Source: Planctomycetota bacterium
Lineage (GTDB): Bacteria; Planctomycetota; PUPC01; DSUN01
Direction: 5' to 3'
Assembly (NCBI GenBank): GCA_016872875.1
Contig: VGYW01000144.1
Coordinates: 1-18,004, forward strand
DNA: 18,004 nt
The notes below the pieces were generated by a model, which saw only the letters and a program-made list of their open reading frames with translations, was not told where the DNA came from and ran no database searches. Below, in pieces: positions 5,729 to 16,257 of the stretch (position 1 is its first letter; every line of letters begins with the position of its first letter). Both the position numbers and the translations under genes were made by a program.

Positions 5729-7408
5729 ATGGTGAACTTGCGAGTGCGAGCGTTGAGCTGGCCGCTCCTGGGCCTGCTCGGGCTGCTGCCGGCGTGCGCG
5801 GTGGGGGCGGAGGCCACGGGTCCCGCGAAGCCGCCCGGTCCCGCCAAACAGCAGCTCTCGCCTGACGAGCAGGCCGCACACGACATCCTCGAACGCTACA
5901 AGGCCGACGCGAAGATCAAGCAGGACCAGTCGCGGGTCCTGGCCGAGCAGCACTTCAGGACGGGAAGGGCACACTTCGACCTGGGCGCATGGGGGGCGGC
6001 TCGCGAGCACTTCCAGAAGGCCGTGGCACTCGACCCCACCCACAAGGAGGCGCAGGACCACCTTCGGAAGACGGCGGGCCTCCTGGGCCTCAAGGAGGGC
6101 AGCCCAGGCCTCGTTGACTCGGTGGTGGCCCAGGAGAAGGTGCGGCGCGAGGCGCAGATGATCCAGCTCCTGAGCCTCTTCGAGCAGGCGAAGGCCGCCT
6201 ACGCGCGGGGGCAGTTCGCCGAGGCACTCGAACTCTTCATCCGCGTGAAGGCCAAAGCCAACTTCCTCGCCCCCCATCTCGACACCTCGAAGGTGGCGGA
6301 GGATGCCGAGAAGGGCATCCAGCAGTCCAAGGCGGCCATTGACCGCCAGCGCAGCGAGGGCGAGCAGGAGCAGCGCCGCCGGGCCGCCGCGGAAGCCGAA
6401 AGGCTCCGCAGGGAGGGCCAGAGCCTCGCCGCCGAGCGTCGCGAGGCCCAGCTCGCCCAGGCCCTCTCCCTCTTCGGCGAGCACCGCTACGGCCAGGCCC
6501 GCAAGCTCTGCGACGAGGTGCTGCGCCACGACCCCGCCAACGCCTCGGCTGCCGCGCTCCGCGACAACGCCCTCCAGGCCGCCAGAGCCGAGGGCATCGC
6601 GCAAGCCATCAACGCCCGCGCCTCCGAAACCAGCCTCCTCATGCGGCAGCTCACCGCCTACACCATCCCCCAGAACTGCATCATCTCCATCTCGCGCCAG
6701 CGCATCGAGGAGCTGCGCAACCGCAAGGGCGACCCGCTCTACGAATCGAGCCTCAAGCCGCCCGAGGAATGGGAGAAGCGCATCCGCGAATCGCTCGAAA
6801 AGAAGGTCACGTTCGATTTTGTCGAGACGCCTTTCCCTGACGTGCTCTCGTTCCTCGGCTCGCTGACGGGCGTCACGCTGGTGCTCGACACCGAGGCGGT
6901 GAAGGGTGCGAGCCCGAACGTCACCCTCCGCGTGCAGGAGATGCGCCTGGAGGCGGCGCTCAACTGGCTCTGCAAGCTCGCCGGGCTCGGCTACACGCTC
7001 CGCGACGAGGCGGTCTTCATCTCGCGGCCCGAACGCATCCACGACACCCCGGTGCTGCGGATGTACGACATCACGGACCTGACGATTGGCATCAAGAACT
7101 TCAAGGGGCGCCAACGCGCCCTGGCCACCGACACCGGCTTCGGGGCACAGCAGAATGTCCGCGACTTCTTCGAGGACGAGGAGGATGAGGACGAGTCGGA
7201 GAAGCCGCTCTCGGGGGCCGAGATGGTGGAGTTCCTCAAGCGCATCGCCGCCCCGACCGGCCCGGAGGACGATGCCGGCCTGGAAAGGGTCCAGCAGGTG
7301 CTCGGCCTCCCGCGCGACGAGCGCCCCGGCAAGGCCCAGGAGCTGGTTGACCTGATCGGCGTCACCATTGGCGGCCGGTCGTACATCGGCGTGAAGACCC
7401 GCGAGTAA
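5729..7408 (+). CDS. Exported TPR protein with C-terminal STN (secretin/TonB N-terminal-like) domain, copy A
   Basis: An N-terminal signal (SWPLLGLLGLLPACAVGA) sends this 559-residue protein across the membrane; the LPAC could be a poor lipobox. Then come a TPR at about 71-105 (HFRTGRAHFDLGAWGAAREH and the following helix), a second TPR-like pair at about 150-175, a charged coiled-coil stretch at about 195-245, and another TPR at about 248-282. Residues 348-423 form an STN-like fold: KVTFDFVETPFPDVLSFLGS, then NVTLRVQEMRLEAALNWLC and YTLRDEAVFIS, as in the N-terminal domains of secretins and TonB-dependent receptors. An acidic run (about 472-483) and a short tail follow. No secretin channel domain is present. 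The start has AGGAG 7 nt upstream. It is the most diverged of three paralogues in the window and has an extra C-terminal tail of about 40 residues. Role unknown; protein binding in the periplasm is likely. Confidence 0.8.
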   Translation: MVNLRVRALSWPLLGLLGLLPACAVGAEATGPAKPPGPAKQQLSPDEQAAHDILERYKADAKIKQDQSRVLAEQHFRTGRAHFDLGAWGAAREHFQKAVALDPTHKEAQDHLRKTAGLLGLKEGSPGLVDSVVAQEKVRREAQMIQLLSLFEQAKAAYARGQFAEALELFIRVKAKANFLAPHLDTSKVAEDAEKGIQQSKAAIDRQRSEGEQEQRRRAAAEAERLRREGQSLAAERREAQLAQALSLFGEHRYGQARKLCDEVLRHDPANASAAALRDNALQAARAEGIAQAINARASETSLLMRQLTAYTIPQNCIISISRQRIEELRNRKGDPLYESSLKPPEEWEKRIRESLEKKVTFDFVETPFPDVLSFLGSLTGVTLVLDTEAVKGASPNVTLRVQEMRLEAALNWLCKLAGLGYTLRDEAVFISRPERIHDTPVLRMYDITDLTIGIKNFKGRQRALATDTGFGAQQNVRDFFEDEEDEDESEKPLSGAEMVEFLKRIAAPTGPEDDAGLERVQQVLGLPRDERPGKAQELVDLIGVTIGGRSYIGVKTRE

Positions 7409-7506: not shown

Positions 7507-7560
7507 TGACCGACGGGGGCTGGAGCCGACACCCTGGTGGGAGGCGAAAGGGGTCCAGCC

Positions 7561-9141
7561 ATGCGACGATGGTGGAAGTGCGGGTTGATATGCGCGCTCC
7601 TGGTGGCCGCGCTCTGCGCCGCTGACGCGCCAAAGGCCAATGGGGAGGAACAGAAGCCCGTCCTCAGCCCCGAGGAACAAGCCGCACTCGACATCATCAA
7701 GCGCTACCAGGTCGAGCAGCGGGTCCAGGCCGATCAGAAGCGGTTCCTTGCGGCACAGCACGTGGCCGCAGGCCAGGCGCACCTGGTGCAGGGGGCCTTC
7801 GAGGACGCCCGCCGCCAGTTCGAGGAGGCCCTGAAGCTCGACGACACGAACAAGGACGCCCAGGAGGGCCTCCGCAAGGCCCAGAGCCTCCTCGGCGTCA
7901 TCAAGCCCAAGTTCGGCCAGCTCGTGACCGACTACGTCGGCCAGCGCGCCGTCGTCATCGAAGCCCAGAAGACCGAGCTGATGAACATGTACGACCAGGC
8001 CCGCCGCCAGCTCGAGGCGGGGAACTACATTGACGCCATCGAGGGCTTCACCCGCGCCGCCGCGAGAGGCCGCTACCTCTCCCCGAACGTGGACGTTGGC
8101 AAGATCGTCGAGGACTGCGAGGCCCTCATCCAGAAGTCCATGCTCAGGATGGAGCAGAAGCGGGTGGAGGACGAGAAGACACGGCGCGAGGCCGCCGAGA
8201 AGTCGGTCCGCGACATGGTCGAGCAGCGCCAGAAGCTCCTCGACGAGCGCATGCAGGCCCTCTACCGCCAGGCCACCGTGCTCATGGCCGAGCACCGCTA
8301 CAAGGAGGCCGAGAACGTCTGCCACGAAATCCTCCGCAAGGATCCCTCCAACGGCGCCGCGCTGACGCTCATGGAGACCGCCAAGGCCGCGGCCCGCAAG
8401 GAGGACATCGAGGCCGCCCTCAAGGAACGCGCCTCCGCCAGCGAGGAGCACTGGCAGGAGACCCAGGCCTACTGCGTCCCCTACAACCAGGTGCGCCCCT
8501 ACATGCCGCGTCCCAAGTTCGAAGAGGTCGTGCGCCGCAAGGGCATCACCTCCTTCGGCGAGAAGACCGAAAAACAAGAATGGGAGAAGCGCATCGAGGA
8601 GTCACTCAACAAGAAGGTCACATTCGACTTCGTCGAAACCCCGCTCCAGGACGTCGTGAACTTCCTGTCGAGCCTGGTGGACGTGACGATCGTGCTCGAC
8701 CACGCGGCCACTAAGGACGCCCCGAACGTCACACTGCGCGTCAACGACATGCGCCTCCTATCCGCGCTCAACTGGATCCTCAAGCTCGTCGCCCTCAAGT
8801 ACACGCTCAAGGACGAAGCGGTCTTCATCTCCAAGGGCGAGAACATCGTTGACAAGGCGGTCCTGCGCATGTACGACGTGACCGACCTGACGATTGACAT
8901 CAAGAACTTCCAGGGCCACCAGCAGGCCCTCGCCTCCGATGGCGGGTACTCCTCCACAGGCTCAACCTTCGGCGGCGGCGGCGGCCAGATGGCCCAGGCG
9001 TTCTTCGAGGGCTGCGAGGACGAAGACAAGGAGGAAGACCGCCTCACCGGCGAGACCCTCGTCGAGTTCATCAAGAAGACCATTGCCCCGAATAGCTGGG
9101 ACATGGGCGACGCGGTGGCCGGCAACAAGGAGTTCCGATGA
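7561..9141 (+). CDS. Exported TPR protein with C-terminal STN domain, copy B
   Basis: The 526-residue protein starts with a signal peptide (CGLICALLVAALCAADA). A TPR at about 62-96, a second at about 131-165, a coiled coil with many Lys, Arg and Glu at about 190-230 and a TPR at about 232-265 follow. The STN domain begins with KKVTFDFVETPLQDVVNF at 351 and ends with TLKDEAVFIS near 424. After VLRMYDVTDLTIDIKNFQG comes a Gly/Ser-rich linker, an acidic run and VEFIKKTIAP. I chose the ATG at 7561, not an earlier in-frame start, because GAGGCGAAAGGGG lies upstream and this leader is conserved before copy C. Copy B is close to copy C along its whole length, and 282 bp are identical (8041-8322 against 11366-11647). 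All three copies end shortly after the STN region, where I would expect a further domain in secretin-like relatives. Confidence 0.82.
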   Translation: MRRWWKCGLICALLVAALCAADAPKANGEEQKPVLSPEEQAALDIIKRYQVEQRVQADQKRFLAAQHVAAGQAHLVQGAFEDARRQFEEALKLDDTNKDAQEGLRKAQSLLGVIKPKFGQLVTDYVGQRAVVIEAQKTELMNMYDQARRQLEAGNYIDAIEGFTRAAARGRYLSPNVDVGKIVEDCEALIQKSMLRMEQKRVEDEKTRREAAEKSVRDMVEQRQKLLDERMQALYRQATVLMAEHRYKEAENVCHEILRKDPSNGAALTLMETAKAAARKEDIEAALKERASASEEHWQETQAYCVPYNQVRPYMPRPKFEEVVRRKGITSFGEKTEKQEWEKRIEESLNKKVTFDFVETPLQDVVNFLSSLVDVTIVLDHAATKDAPNVTLRVNDMRLLSALNWILKLVALKYTLKDEAVFISKGENIVDKAVLRMYDVTDLTIDIKNFQGHQQALASDGGYSSTGSTFGGGGGQMAQAFFEGCEDEDKEEDRLTGETLVEFIKKTIAPNSWDMGDAVAGNKEFR

Positions 9142-9377: not shown

Positions 9378-10763
9378 ATGAAGAGCTACCACTTCGGCCG
9401 CAGCCCGCGGGCGATTGCCGCCTTCGTGTGCCACATCGCCAACGGCACCAGCCAGCGGGCGAAGGACCTGCTCGAGCACGAGCTCGAGCGCAGCGGCTTT
9501 GACAGGCGGGACCGCGACCTGGCCACGGAGCTGGCCTACGGCACGCTGCGGCAGCGCGGCACGCTCGACCACCTCCTGGCTCAGTTCAGCTCCCTGCCGC
9601 TCAAGAGGATTCAGCCGCAGGTGCTCGAAGTCCTGCGGATTGGCGCGTATCAACTGCTGTTCCTTGACAAGGTGCCTGCTCCTGCCGCCGTCAGCGAGGC
9701 GGTGGAGATGGCCAAACGGGTCAGTTCCCGCGGCGCGGTGGGCTTCGTCAACGCCTGCCTCCGCGCGCTCCACAGGGCCATCGTGGCCAAGGAGAGCCAG
9801 GCGGGCGACGACCCCCGGCGGGCGCTGCCCGTGGGCGACGACGCCTGGTGCGTCTTCGACCGGCCAGTGCTGCCGGACCCCCGGCGGGCGCTGGCGGCCT
9901 GGCTGGCCGCCGCCCACTCGCACCCGCTGTGGCTCGTGCGGCGCTGGCTGGGCCGCTTCGGTGAGGCCGCCACGCGTCGCCTCTGCGAGATGGGCAACCG
10001 CCACGCCGGCCTGGCGCTCCGCGTGAACCGCCTTCGGGCGACGCGCGACGGCCTGGTCGCCGAGCTCGTGAAGGGCGGCCGCTGGGCCAAGCCGCTGGGC
10101 GCCGACCACGTGGTGATTGACCCCGCCGGCTCCCTGGCCGACCTCGCGGCCCTCCGCGACGGCCTCTGCACGGTGCAGGGCGTCGCGGCCTCCGCGGCGC
10201 CGGCGCTCCTGGCGCCTCAGCCGGGCGAGTTGCTGCTCGACGTCTGCTCCGCGCCCGGCTCGAAGGCCTGCCAGCTCGCGGAGCTGGCCCGAGGCGAGGC
10301 CAGGGTGGTGGCACTCGACGTCTCGCCGAAGCGCCTCCGCCAGGTGGCTGCAAACATCCAGCGCCTCGGCGCCCGAACCGTCTGGCCCGTGGCGGGCGAC
10401 GGCGCGGCCTGCGAGCGGCTCTTCAGGGCGGCCTTCGACGCCGCCCTGGTGGATGTGCCGTGCTCGAACACGGGCGTGTTGGCCCGCCGCGTGGAGAGCC
10501 GCTGGCGCCTCTCGGCGGAGACGATTGCCGGGCTGGCCGAGCTCCAGGGGCGGCTCCTGGCGTCGGCCGCCGCGGCCGTGCGGCCGGGCGGACGGCTCGT
10601 CTACAGCACGTGCAGCCTGGAGCAGGAGGAGAACGAGCAGGCCGTCGAGAGCTTCTGCCGCGAGCAGGCGGCCTGGCGTCTCGCCGAAGCGCGCTACATC
10701 CTGCCGCACGAGACGGGCGACGACGGCGGCTATGTGGCGCTCCTGAGGCGAACGGCCGAATGA
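9378..10763 (+). CDS. rsmB: 16S rRNA (cytosine-967-C5)-methyltransferase RsmB
   Basis: The 461-residue protein is a two-part RsmB. Residues about 10-135 are the NusB-like RNA-binding domain (RDRDLATELAYGTLRQRGTL, YQLLFLDKVPAPAAVSEAVE, GFVNACLRAL). The C-terminal half is the SAM-dependent methyltransferase: SAM-binding LLLDVCSAPGSKACQL at 285-300, ALDVSPKRL at 312-320, motif IV DVPCSNTGVLARR with Cys362, and motif VI STCSLEQEEN with Cys412, the expected methyl-transfer nucleophile. It methylates C967 of 16S rRNA using S-adenosylmethionine in the cytosol. A linker of about 40 residues (about 140-180, with FDRPVLPDP) is longer than in E. coli; I associate this with planctomycete proteins. SNTG replaces the more usual SGTG. 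The purines AAAGGG abut the ATG, an unusually short spacing. It sits between STN-TPR copies B and C but has its own promoter and no obvious link to them. Confidence 0.93.
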   Translation: MKSYHFGRSPRAIAAFVCHIANGTSQRAKDLLEHELERSGFDRRDRDLATELAYGTLRQRGTLDHLLAQFSSLPLKRIQPQVLEVLRIGAYQLLFLDKVPAPAAVSEAVEMAKRVSSRGAVGFVNACLRALHRAIVAKESQAGDDPRRALPVGDDAWCVFDRPVLPDPRRALAAWLAAAHSHPLWLVRRWLGRFGEAATRRLCEMGNRHAGLALRVNRLRATRDGLVAELVKGGRWAKPLGADHVVIDPAGSLADLAALRDGLCTVQGVAASAAPALLAPQPGELLLDVCSAPGSKACQLAELARGEARVVALDVSPKRLRQVAANIQRLGARTVWPVAGDGAACERLFRAAFDAALVDVPCSNTGVLARRVESRWRLSAETIAGLAELQGRLLASAAAAVRPGGRLVYSTCSLEQEENEQAVESFCREQAAWRLAEARYILPHETGDDGGYVALLRRTAE

Positions 10764-10765
10764 AC

Positions 10766-10824
10766 CGGATTTCGGATTTCGGATTTGCGGTTTCGGATTT
10801 CCCGCGCTTCGCCAGAAGCGCGGG
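10766..10824. repeat. CGGATTT direct repeats followed by a perfect 10-bp hairpin
   Basis: CGGATTT occurs at 10766, 10773, 10780 and 10794, with a degenerate CGGTTT between the last two. It is followed at once by CCCGCGCTTC (10801-10810), a GCCA loop and GAAGCGCGGG (10815-10824). There is no T-run after it. It sits between the rsmB stop and STN-TPR copy C. Confidence 0.75.
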
Positions 10825-10873
10825 CAAGGGGGCTGGAGACAACACCGTGGTGGGAGGCGAAAGGGGTCGAGCC

Positions 10874-12466
10874 ATGCGACGATGGTGGAAGTCTGGATTG
10901 GCGTGCGCGCTCCTGGTGGCCGCGCTCAGCGGGGCACCGCGTGCCGCGGATGCGCCCAAGCCCGAGGGCGAAGCGCCCAAACCCGTCCTCAGCCCTGAAG
11001 AGCAAGCCGCACTCGACATCATCAAGCGCTACCAGGTGGAGGAGCGGGTGCAGCACGACCAGAAGCGGTTCCTGGCGCAGCAGCACGTGGCCGCGGGCCA
11101 GGCCCACCTGGTCAACGGGGCCTACGAGGACGCCCGCCGCCAGTTCGAAGAGGCCATGAAGCTCGACGACACGAACAAGGACGCCCAGGAGGGCCTCCGC
11201 AAGGCCCAGAGCCTCCTCGGCGTCATCAAGCCCAAGTTCGGCGACCTCGTGACCGACTACGCCCGCCAGCGCGCCATCGCCATCGAGGTCCAGAAGACCG
11301 AGCTGATGAACATGTACGACCAGGCCCGCCGCCAGCTCGAGGCGGGGAACTACATAGACGCCATTGAGGGCTTCACCCGCGCCGCCGCGAGAGGCCGCTA
11401 CCTCTCCCCGAACGTGGACGTTGGCAAGATCGTCGAGGACTGCGAGGCCCTCATCCAGAAGTCCATGCTCAGGATGGAGCAGAAGCGGGTGGAGGACGAG
11501 AAGACACGGCGCGAGGCCGCCGAGAAGTCGGTCCGCGACATGGTCGAGCAGCGCCAGAAGCTCCTCGACGAGCGCATGCAGGCCCTCTACCGCCAGGCCA
11601 CCGTGCTCATGGCCGAGCACCGCTACAAGGAGGCCGAGAACGTCTGCAACGAAATCCTCCGCAAGGACCCCTCCAACGGCGCCGCGCTCACGCTGATGGA
11701 GACGGCCAAGGCCGCGGCCCGCAAGGAGGACATCGAGGCCGCCCTCAAGGAGCGCCGCTCCGCCAGCGAGGAGCACTGGCAGGAGACCCAGGCCTACTGC
11801 GTCCCCTACAACCAGGTCCGACCCTACATGCCGCGCGACAAGTTCGAAGAGGTCGCTCGCCGCAAGATCGCCACCTCCTTCGGCGAACAGGTCGAAGAGC
11901 AGGAGTGGGAACGCCGCATCAAGGAGTCCCTCAACAAGAAGGTCACGTTCGACTTCGTCGAGACCCCGCTCCAGGACGTCGTGAACTTCCTCTCCAGCCT
12001 CGTGGACGTGACGATTGTGCTCGACCACGCGGCCACGAAGGACGCCCCGAACGTCACCCTCCGCGTCAACGACATGCGCCTCCAGTCGGCCCTCAACTGG
12101 ATCCTCAAGCTCGTCGCCCTCAGGTACACGCTCAAGGACGAAGCGGTCTTCATCTCCAAGGGCGAGAACATCACGGAGAGGCCGGTCCTGCGCATGTACG
12201 ACGTCACTGACCTGACGATTGACATCAAGAACTTCCAGGGCCGCCAGCAGGCCCTCGCCTCCGACAGCGGCTACTCCTCCACCGGCTCGAGCTTCGGCGG
12301 CGGCGGCGGCAGCGGCCAGATGGCACAGGAGTTCTTCGGCGGCGACGAAGACGAGAACGAGGAGGAAGACAGGATCACGGGCGAAAGCCTCGTGGAGTTC
12401 ATCAAGAAGACCATCGCCCCAGGCTCCTGGGACGTCGAGGGCGCGGCCGCCGTCAAGGAGTTCTGA
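10874..12466 (+). CDS. Exported TPR protein with C-terminal STN domain, copy C
   Basis: This 530-residue protein is a near duplicate of copy B. It has a signal peptide (SGLACALLVAALSGAPRAADA), TPRs at about 66-100, 135-169 and 236-269, a coiled coil between the last two, and an STN domain from about 355 to 428. A Gly/Ser-rich linker, an acidic run (GGDEDENEEEDR) and VEFIKKTIAPGSWD close the protein. The ATG at 10874 has GAGGCGAAAGGGG upstream, the same leader as copy B. Differences from copy B cluster in the first 110 residues, after residue 290, and in the acidic tail. The gene is followed by a convincing terminator. Recent duplication with later gene conversion fits the pattern. The substrate or partner is not known; the protein TonB-like gene downstream is a candidate partner. 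Confidence 0.83.
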   Translation: MRRWWKSGLACALLVAALSGAPRAADAPKPEGEAPKPVLSPEEQAALDIIKRYQVEERVQHDQKRFLAQQHVAAGQAHLVNGAYEDARRQFEEAMKLDDTNKDAQEGLRKAQSLLGVIKPKFGDLVTDYARQRAIAIEVQKTELMNMYDQARRQLEAGNYIDAIEGFTRAAARGRYLSPNVDVGKIVEDCEALIQKSMLRMEQKRVEDEKTRREAAEKSVRDMVEQRQKLLDERMQALYRQATVLMAEHRYKEAENVCNEILRKDPSNGAALTLMETAKAAARKEDIEAALKERRSASEEHWQETQAYCVPYNQVRPYMPRDKFEEVARRKIATSFGEQVEEQEWERRIKESLNKKVTFDFVETPLQDVVNFLSSLVDVTIVLDHAATKDAPNVTLRVNDMRLQSALNWILKLVALRYTLKDEAVFISKGENITERPVLRMYDVTDLTIDIKNFQGRQQALASDSGYSSTGSSFGGGGGSGQMAQEFFGGDEDENEEEDRITGESLVEFIKKTIAPGSWDVEGAAAVKEF

Positions 12467-14943: not shown

Positions 14944-14997
14944 TGTCGCCCGCCGGCGCCCCAATGCCCAAAGCCGCCCATGGTCTGGTGGTTCGAA

Positions 14998-15082
14998 TCG
15001 TCGTCGTCGTCGTCCTCGTCGTCGAGCCTCCGTGATGGGAAGAGCCCGAAGACTCGACGACGACGACGAGGACGACGACGAG
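14998..15082. repeat. Inverted GTC/GAC triplet repeat
   Basis: The left arm (14998-15026) is a run of CGT units broken by one CCT. The right arm (15053-15082) is a run of ACG units broken by one AGG. The inner 10 bp pair perfectly (15017-15026 with 15053-15062) and the rest pairs with two mismatches, because the odd triplet sits in a different position in each arm. The loop is 26 bases. It starts 55 bp after the toroid gene and could act as its 3' hairpin. Confidence 0.7.
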
Positions 15083-15146
15083 CACGAGAAGGCGAGCGGG
15101 GGCCTGCGCCAATACCGGAACCCATAGTCCCGAGGCCGCGGGCGCC

Positions 15147-15175
15147 TTGATCGCCGGACAGGGATAGCCTATAAT
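15147..15175 (+). promoter_or_regulatory. Sigma70-type promoter for the flavoprotein gene
   Basis: TTGATC (15147-15152), 17 bases, then TATAAT (15170-15175). The predicted start is near 15182, exactly where the cloverleaf element begins. Confidence 0.6.
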
Positions 15176-15181
15176 TGGCTT

Positions 15182-15302
15182 CTGTTGCGGAAGGTGGTTC
15201 CCCGAGCACGCCCAAACAAGTTTGGGCGTGGCACCCGCAACTCTCACCAATCCGGCGGAGGGTGCCACGGACAAACTTGTTTGTCCGTGTCTTCCGCAAC
15301 AG
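15182..15302 (+). repeat. Cloverleaf-like element of two inverted 30-bp units in the flavoprotein leader
   Basis: An outer 12-bp pair, CTGTTGCGGAAG (15182-15193) with CTTCCGCAACAG (15291-15302), encloses two 11-bp hairpins (15207-15230 and 15266-15289, each with a 2-base loop) and a central 9-bp pair, GTGGCACCC (15228-15236) with GGGTGCCAC (15260-15268). The central stem shares three bases with each hairpin. The second unit (15260-15289) is the reverse complement of the first (15207-15236) except at four positions, which form two compensatory base-pair changes. It may be a REPIN-type repeat, a leader RNA structure, or both. Confidence 0.75.
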
Positions 15303-15366
15303 GAGCTGATTGGCAGATTGGCAGGCCGGGGACATGTGACCTCAACCACAGGAGAGCGTCCGCCCA

Positions 15367-16257
15367 ATGGCAGAAGTCCAATCGGCAGTCAGGAGCCAGC
15401 AGTCGGAGGCCGCCCCGCCACACGCCCCCCACATCTATTATCCGATGCTCACGCGCATCGCGGCGATACGCGAGGAGGCGCCGCTCGTGCGCACGTTCAG
15501 GCTGGAGTTCGTGGACCCCGCCGACGCCGAGCGGTTCACGTTCAAGACCGGGCAGTTCGGCGAATACTCGTGCTTCGGGGCGGGCGAGAGCACGTTCTGC
15601 GTGGCCTCGCCCCACACGCGGAAGGGCTACATCGAGTGCACGTTCCGCGAGGCGGGGCGCGTGACCCGCGCCCTGGCGCGGAGCGAGGTGGGCGACATCG
15701 TGGGCTTCCGCGGGCCGTACGGCAACCACTTCCCCGTGGACGAGTGGCAGGGCAAGAAGCTCATCTTCATCGCCGGCGGCATCGCACTCCCCCCCGTGCG
15801 GAGCGTCATCTGGACCTGTCTGGACGAACGCGAGCGCTACAGCGACATCTGGATCATCTACGGCGCGCGGACGGTTGCCGACCTTGTCTACAAGGACGAG
15901 TTGGCGGAATGGCAGGAGCGGGGCGACGTGCAGGTGGTCCAGACCGTTGACCCCGGGGGCGAGACGGAGGACTGGGCCGGCCGCATCGGCTTCGTGCCAA
16001 CGATTGTCGAGCAGGTCAAGCCCCCGGTCGAGAACTCCATCGTCGTCCTCTGCGGCCCGCCCATCATGATCAAGTTCACCCTCGCCACGCTCAAGAACTT
16101 GGGCTTCTCGCTCCAGCAGGTTTACACCACCCTCGAGAACAGGATGAAGTGCGGCCTGGGGAAGTGTGGGCGGTGCAACGTCGGCCCGATATACGTCTGC
16201 AAGGAAGGCCCGGTCTTCACCGCGGCCCAGCTCGCCGGCCTGCCGATGGATTATTGA
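15367..16257 (+). CDS. FAD/NAD(P)-binding oxidoreductase subunit with C-terminal [2Fe-2S] cluster (hydrogenase/sulfur reductase gamma-subunit type)
   Basis: The 296-residue protein belongs to the ferredoxin-reductase-like group that includes sulfhydrogenase gamma and anaerobic sulfite reductase B subunits. An FAD-binding barrel covers about 25-125 (VRTFRLEF, TGQFGEYSCFGAGESTFCVAS, GFRGPYGNHFP). The NAD(P) domain covers about 130-240 (IFIAGGIALPPVRSVIW, IIYGARTVADLVYKDEL, VLCGPPIMIKF). The C-terminal cysteines C252, C257, C260 and C268 (spacing 4, 2, 7) bind a [2Fe-2S] cluster. Such proteins pass electrons between NAD(P)H and an iron-sulfur partner. The usual partners (dicluster ferredoxin, hydrogenase or heterodisulfide reductase subunits) are absent from the window, so its electron acceptor is unknown. 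AGGAGA lies 11 nt before the ATG. The first 20 residues look disordered; Met27 is a possible later start. The gene has its own promoter and a structured leader. Confidence 0.87.
   Translation: MAEVQSAVRSQQSEAAPPHAPHIYYPMLTRIAAIREEAPLVRTFRLEFVDPADAERFTFKTGQFGEYSCFGAGESTFCVASPHTRKGYIECTFREAGRVTRALARSEVGDIVGFRGPYGNHFPVDEWQGKKLIFIAGGIALPPVRSVIWTCLDERERYSDIWIIYGARTVADLVYKDELAEWQERGDVQVVQTVDPGGETEDWAGRIGFVPTIVEQVKPPVENSIVVLCGPPIMIKFTLATLKNLGFSLQQVYTTLENRMKCGLGKCGRCNVGPIYVCKEGPVFTAAQLAGLPMDY

Follow-up and report, generated by a model that had tools for sequence, protein, structure and literature searches.

The striking folded leader in front of a flavoprotein gene seems to have come along with mobile DNA and does not look like an RNA switch built for the purpose. 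It lies in an 18,004-nt stretch of a Planctomycetota bacterium (contig VGYW01000144.1, assembly GCA_016872875.1), which as a whole is called the window here. We consider it highly probable that positions 15179-15305 are a non-autonomous composite transposon, made of a MITE shell and a REPIN core, that landed immediately downstream of the -10 box in the promoter of the flavoprotein gene. Behind this stand a family of related copies, their common ends, duplications across the copies, an association with RAYT genes, and a homologous leader that lacks the element. The features are listed in Table 1.

Table 1. Features of the leader region in the window and RAYT genes of the two relatives, G001 and G002
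Feature	Position	Strand	Remarks
Promoter TTGATC-17 nt-TATAAT	15147..15175	+	pattern search; similar in homologous locus L001
Left target-site duplication ATAATTGG	15171..15178	+	overlaps -10 box
Whole inserted element, 127 bp (MITE shell and REP-pair core)	15179..15305	.	shell and duplication comparison
Left terminal inverted repeat	15179..15194	+	2 mismatches to consensus TTYCTGTTGCGGAAAG
REP unit 1	15207..15236	+	hairpin 15207-15230, GCCC type, plus head
REP unit 2	15260..15289	-	inverted; hairpin 15266-15289, GGAC type, plus head
Right terminal inverted repeat	15290..15305	-	3 mismatches to consensus TTYCTGTTGCGGAAAG
Right target-site duplication CTGATTGG	15306..15313	+	6/8 identical to left copy ATAATTGG
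Flavoprotein gene, NAD-binding Fe-S electron-transfer subunit	15367..16257	+	its leader received the element
RAYT of G001	L151:1368-2024		units at 1353-1376, 2056-2079, 2173-2196
RAYT of G002	L152:1562-2140		units at 1547-1570, 2152-2175, 2211-2234, 2279-2302

The original prediction described two inverted units that differ by compensatory base pairs and are enclosed by a 12-bp outer stem, and both parts of this description were borne out. The units are complementary at 26 of 30 nt (87%), with their stems located as claimed, and the outer stem (15182-15193/15291-15302) is perfect over all 12 bp. CAAACWWGTTTG occurs twice in the window at up to one mismatch, compared to 0.02 expected. For the outer-stem 12-mer, 2 matches at up to two mismatches were found in the window against a chance mean of 2.02; since this number is near chance, the significance of the outer stem rests on the family and not on the window copy. 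RNA folding of 15182-15302, which had been proposed as a check, gave -67 kcal/mol (z = -7.83), and none of 200 shuffles was equally stable. The cloverleaf drawn earlier for this stretch was ruled out as the most stable fold with both RNA and DNA parameters. Instead, the minimum-energy fold is a single long hairpin, in which unit 1 pairs with unit 2 across two 2x2 mismatches, at -67.0 compared to -63.8 kcal/mol with both hairpins forced (RNA) and -41.4 compared to -39.4 kcal/mol (DNA). The two-hairpin form is weaker by 3.2 (RNA) and 2.0 kcal/mol (DNA) and, therefore, the two forms are close competitors.

The promoter was found where it had been placed, and the duplication overlaps its -10 box, so that the transcript would start at about the first bases of the shell. 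The closest homologues of the flavoprotein are encoded in two Planctomycetota MAGs, at L001 in genome G001 (86% identical) and at L002 in genome G002 (79% identical), and the element is absent from the leaders of both. An ungapped comparison of 15147-15177 with L001 showed 23 of 31 positions to be identical, where the best of 2000 shuffles reached 19 and the best of 234 other L001 tiles reached 17. The L001 leader has 58 nt before the ATG compared to 191 nt in the window. Subtracting the element and one duplication (127 + 8 = 135) leaves 191 - 135 = 56 nt. When the whole leaders were aligned locally with gaps, the score was 30, which is not significant given a shuffle 95% value of 40; with the element excised, it was 39, above the 95% value of 32.5 and below the shuffle maximum of 41.5. 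In a separate comparison, the residual leader aligned weakly with that of L001 (p 0.05). The gene upstream of the window's promoter encodes a cyclase-like/HEAT-repeat protein, which had no match in L001 or L002, and the loci are thus not syntenic. Because the leader alignments are weak and the upstream genes unmatched, L001 is a homologous leader without the element and not a perfect empty site. Across 80 homologous loci, some of which hold little upstream sequence, neither CAAACWWGTTTG nor CTTCCGCAACAG occurred exactly (0/80). The composite of MITE shell and REP core was probably inserted at the transcription start of the flavoprotein gene.

Several other features of the region were seen along the way. 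In L002, a cysteine-rich protein (CxxCxxC, by eye; L002:1-287) precedes the flavoprotein gene. Upstream of the window's promoter, 14996-15095 form a (GTC)n-rich inverted repeat that looks like another interspersed repeat. BLAST found stretches 79-84% identical to it in L207/L208, L350, L153/L123, L204, and L122, part of this likeness being simple repeat since the low-complexity filter was off. The ORFs 7537-9141 and 10460-12466 look very similar by eye, with a common MRRWWK start and PVLSPEEQAALDIIKRYQVE, and flank a NusB/RsmB-type methyltransferase gene (9378-10763). A third ORF with TPR matches (5729-7408) seems by eye to be related to them.

The window's structure is one copy of an interspersed family. 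A search with 15170-15310 gave 75 matches in G001 and 24 in G002 at E<=10 (best 8.8e-37), many of which count one palindrome on both strands, and the weak hits are due to chance. The hairpin unit at up to three mismatches was found 32 times per strand in G001 and 7 and 8 times in G002, compared to 0 for the reversed-pattern control. The REP unit of this family is CACGNNCAAACNAGTTTGNNCGTG with a GGCACCC head at one side. Covariation was scored over 45 hairpins (25 distinct), picked by a palindromic pattern at up to four mismatches, which biases the set to pairing except at two free pairs. Paired cells made up 94.2% compared to 86.1% in shuffles, two-sided cells numbered 16 compared to 4.5, and the covariation score was 0.225 compared to 0.081 (each 0/500), with slid controls at most 0.112. 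Less can be read from how many pairs had changed on both sides (4 compared to 2.5 in shuffles, 43/500). The most variable pairs, 5-20 and 6-19, are the same two that differ between the window's units. Thus, the other copies and the covariation across them, for which a search had been suggested, were both found in the relatives. Unit types GCCC and GGAC both recur among the other copies. Since the same pair of unit types recurs elsewhere, the compensatory difference was inherited from an ancestral copy and not born in this leader. Inverted unit pairs with a variable spacer are also common: a pattern search at up to three mismatches in the window and L151-L178 gave 24 inward head pairs, and for 12 of them the stem on each side is perfect over at least six pairs. 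Those at L160:1101 and L171 have no perfect stem of six or more, and some of the 24 probably fit the pattern by chance.

Matches to Y1 transposases at E<=0.001 numbered 19 in G001 and 4 in G002. A check for RAYT genes had been recommended, and each of these relatives has one with hairpin units on both sides (Table 1). The proteins scored 93.9 (L151) and 82.8 bits (L152) against NF047646 (REP-associated tyrosine transposase; cut-off 80) and are 59% identical over 181 residues. When the L152 protein was aligned to E. coli TnpA-REP (4er8), the HxH (PEHIH/PEHMH) and VDYI motifs matched, and we take the HxH and the tyrosine to be the catalytic residues. The true starts of the RAYT genes are probably further downstream, because the listed ORFs (TTG) begin inside the upstream palindrome. 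A third Y1 protein, at L153, stayed below the cut-off of 80 with 53.7 bits, and a single palindrome lies downstream of it.

The outer stem does not belong to the REP unit but forms the terminal inverted repeat (TIR) of a separate MITE family, called the shell here. The 12-mer YCTGTTGCGGAA of the TTYCTGTTGCGGAAAG ends occurs exactly 111 times in G001 compared to 3 for the control, and in G001 and G055 stretches of 79-171 bp with other cores lie between paired TTYCTGTTGCGGAAAG-type ends. At up to one mismatch, the TIR matched 68 of 294 phylum genomes; G001 (123) and G055 (22) stand out, with 0 in controls, and the other genomes have 0-4 hits each. In G055, a 1.8-Mb Planctomycetota genome, the same TIR frames GC-rich cores with GTCAGAC/GTCTGAC tracts (L259-L269). 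By eye, L175:640-740 looks like a mini-element in which one hairpin is flanked by similar ends (CTGTTGCGGA...TGCGCAACAG), perhaps a one-unit version of the shell.

Target duplications were scored in 59 shell rows, drawn from among the YCTGTTGCGGAA matches listed, the REP loci, and some G055, G075, and G002 loci. Most rows come from G001, with four from G055, one from G002, and one from the window; two (L368, L192) repeat an element in a second register. Duplications matched at 6 or more of 8 positions in 42 of the 59 rows, compared to 17.8% with re-paired flanks. Flanks agreed in 37-49 of the 59 rows at positions -8 to -1 and in 9-23 outside them, and the duplication is taken as 8 bp because identity is raised at those eight positions only. 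A 6-bp duplication, first considered from few copies, was rejected since the position-by-position identity fits 8 bp. The window copy, with 127 bp and perfect 12-bp stem, agrees with the size (70-300 bp) and TIRs of a MITE, and its duplications (ATAATTGG/CTGATTGG) are imperfect. Those of L154 and L163, which have the same kind of core, match at 6/8 and 7/8.

Shell and core are separable. Shell ends were present on both sides of 3 of the 24 inward REP pairs (window, L154, L163), on one side of 8, and on neither side of 13, and about seven kinds of hairpin pair occur as cores of the shells. The window core matches the RAYT loci L116, L130, and L123. Fourteen other shell cores were compared with 20 RAYT loci, and the GTAG-type core of L199 matched around the RAYT of L121 (E 4e-9); the cores of L192 and L179 gave weak matches (E 0.004 and 4e-4), and the other cores gave none at E<=0.01. 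Two of the about seven kinds of pair have matches in the sequence around RAYT genes.

The units within a shell are almost never identical. Out of 58 rows scored (one with more than five mismatches was dropped), 12 had no unit pair and 46 had a scorable one, for which perfect stems in both units and an identity of at least 60% were required. The units differed by one or two compensatory pairs in 45 of these 46 shells, 35 of the 46 belonging to one core family. As two perfect stems were required, the stem differences are compensatory by construction, and the informative part is the near absence of identical units. In silico, this inequality weakens the competing long hairpin. One possible explanation, which we put forward tentatively and rate as rather doubtful, is that the shell acts as a vehicle of general use, which more than once took up REP pairs belonging to different RAYT families. 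On the same proposal, the units inside have to keep their compensatory inequality, since two equal units would form one long and perfect palindrome, which cells cleave or delete. If the shell is such a vehicle, REPINs gain a second, cut-and-paste route of spreading.

We searched for a mobiliser of the shell in phylum genomes, plasmids, and viral sequences and recovered no intact transposase with TTYCTGTTGCGGAAAG-type ends. The plasmid collection gave no match at E<=0.01. The exact 16-mer was present in 67 viral stretches, 6 of which have a distant second end with flanks all at 1/8, and these occurrences were judged to be chance. Two loci have an IS-like end followed by an ORF start; L272 reaches the contig end, and the ORF of L278 is short. 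The IS-like end of G002 matched 4 of 392 phylum genomes, namely G002 itself and three with short partial matches, and the L278 ORF matched 5 of 392, one of which is its own genome, G041. A degraded element in G135 (L388) has a similar end (3 mismatches), CTAAATAG before it, and a broken reading frame. It matched the ISNCY family NF033593 partially (93.4 bits, residues 4-129; cut-off 325). In six genomes, the ISNCY family gave weak matches in five and none above the cut-off; the L388 piece matched only its own genome among six and had no relative in the viral contigs. An ISNCY-like relative as the mobiliser is a lead only.

Taken as a composite transposon, the outer MITE with TTYCTGTTGCGGAAAG ends would be moved in trans by a putative cut-and-paste transposase that leaves 8-bp duplications, and the core would be an inverted REP-unit pair (REPIN), whose relatives at other loci lie on both sides of the family's own RAYT. 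The element would have inserted directly after the -10 box, and the predicted transcript would begin at about its left end, with a very stable stem. Any effect of the fold on the flavoprotein gene, such as a shielded or slowed 5' end, would probably be incidental. The original prediction left a choice between a REPIN-type repeat that landed in the leader and a regulatory RNA for an iron-sulfur/flavin enzyme. The other copies and the unit-flanked RAYT genes in relatives support the former, but it is incomplete, as the outer stem is a MITE shell with 8-bp duplications. A plain REPIN moved by a RAYT, with the outer stem as a conserved REPIN flank and the 8-bp repeats at the window copy accidental, is in line with REP pairs coexisting with RAYT genes of their own family and with a TCTTCCGCAACAGG-like flank that recurs at one side of REP pairs, including beside the L151 RAYT (12/14). 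We think this unlikely, given that many elements with other cores share these ends and have 8-bp duplications and that 13 of the 24 inward pair matches lack shell ends. Also, the known IS200/IS605 members have no terminal inverted repeats or larger target duplications according to the available part of PMC2817692.

Very improbable, in our assessment, is a palindromic element retained for a role in DNA, such as a binding site for chromosomal proteins or a terminator, and not for movement. Gyrase and IHF are proteins that bind REPs and BIMEs. Palindromes are abundant in the relatives, and REPs and BIMEs are described as protein binding sites (PMC2817692, available part). However, the 8-bp duplications point to insertion, as does the homologous leader that lacks the element, and the sole terminator-like match is on the opposite strand (1 found compared to 0.5 expected). 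A leader fold selected as a regulatory RNA that controls the flavoprotein gene (riboswitch, attenuator, or 5' stabiliser) is the least probable reading. The very stable fold at the predicted 5' end would suit it, and transcribed MITEs can stabilise or destabilise mRNA (PMC3733652, available part). The fold is missing before the 86% and 79% identical homologues, though, its exact motifs are absent from all 80 homologous loci, related copies occupy many other places in the relatives, and an Rfam scan of the window found 0 families at the gathering score. Lacking both conservation at homologues and an Rfam match, the flavin or iron-sulfur regulatory RNA was rejected.

The composite transposon has consequences beyond this leader. 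The spreading of REPs is poorly understood and might involve TnpA-REP (PMC8266576, available part), and a MITE shell with exchangeable REP cores would add a second route. The same hairpins, occurring both within a transposon that has clear target duplications and outside it, would be a natural experiment, and the repeated compensatory inequality (45/46 scorable shells, about seven core families) suggests a rule on the palindromes that bacteria tolerate. There is also a caution: a near-perfect 5' fold with compensatory changes can be mobile DNA and not a riboswitch.

In the parts available to us, the literature already describes compensatory changes in REP doublets and one MITE with a REP inside (PMC3116915, PMC2817692, PMC5896051, PMC3733652, PMC10969869). 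A MITE shell with several REP-pair cores was not found among titles and the starts of abstracts, mostly of papers outside subscription journals. Like the window family, REPINs or REP doublets with a RAYT are inverted palindromic pairs in many copies, with the RAYT flanked by inverted units, and their hairpin sides show compensatory changes, the palindromes being preserved by complementary mutations (PMC3116915, PMC2817692, available parts). They differ in their GT(A/G)G head, whereas that of the window family is GGGTGCC, and a GTAG head is present in the L199/L364 core family. Unlike REPINs, the window's REP pair sits in a MITE shell with target duplications. ISNCY insertion sequences (NF033593) share a similar end and the CTAAATAG flank only in the degraded L388 of another genome, and their link to the shells is putative. 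The TIRs and TIRtrons of tyrosine transposases in Pseudomonas are similar in joining degenerate REP units to other stem-loops in hundreds of copies; unlike the window shell, those TIRs flank RAYT-like genes, and the available part of PMC3733652 does not mention 'target site'. QMITE2 is likewise a MITE with TIRs and a REP inside, in its case a GTAG REP, has direct repeats of 7-11 nt, and its small copies resemble bare REPs (PMC5896051; review PMC10969869; available parts). QMITE2 is one MITE family containing a REP, whereas here one type of TIR frames about seven kinds of hairpin pair.
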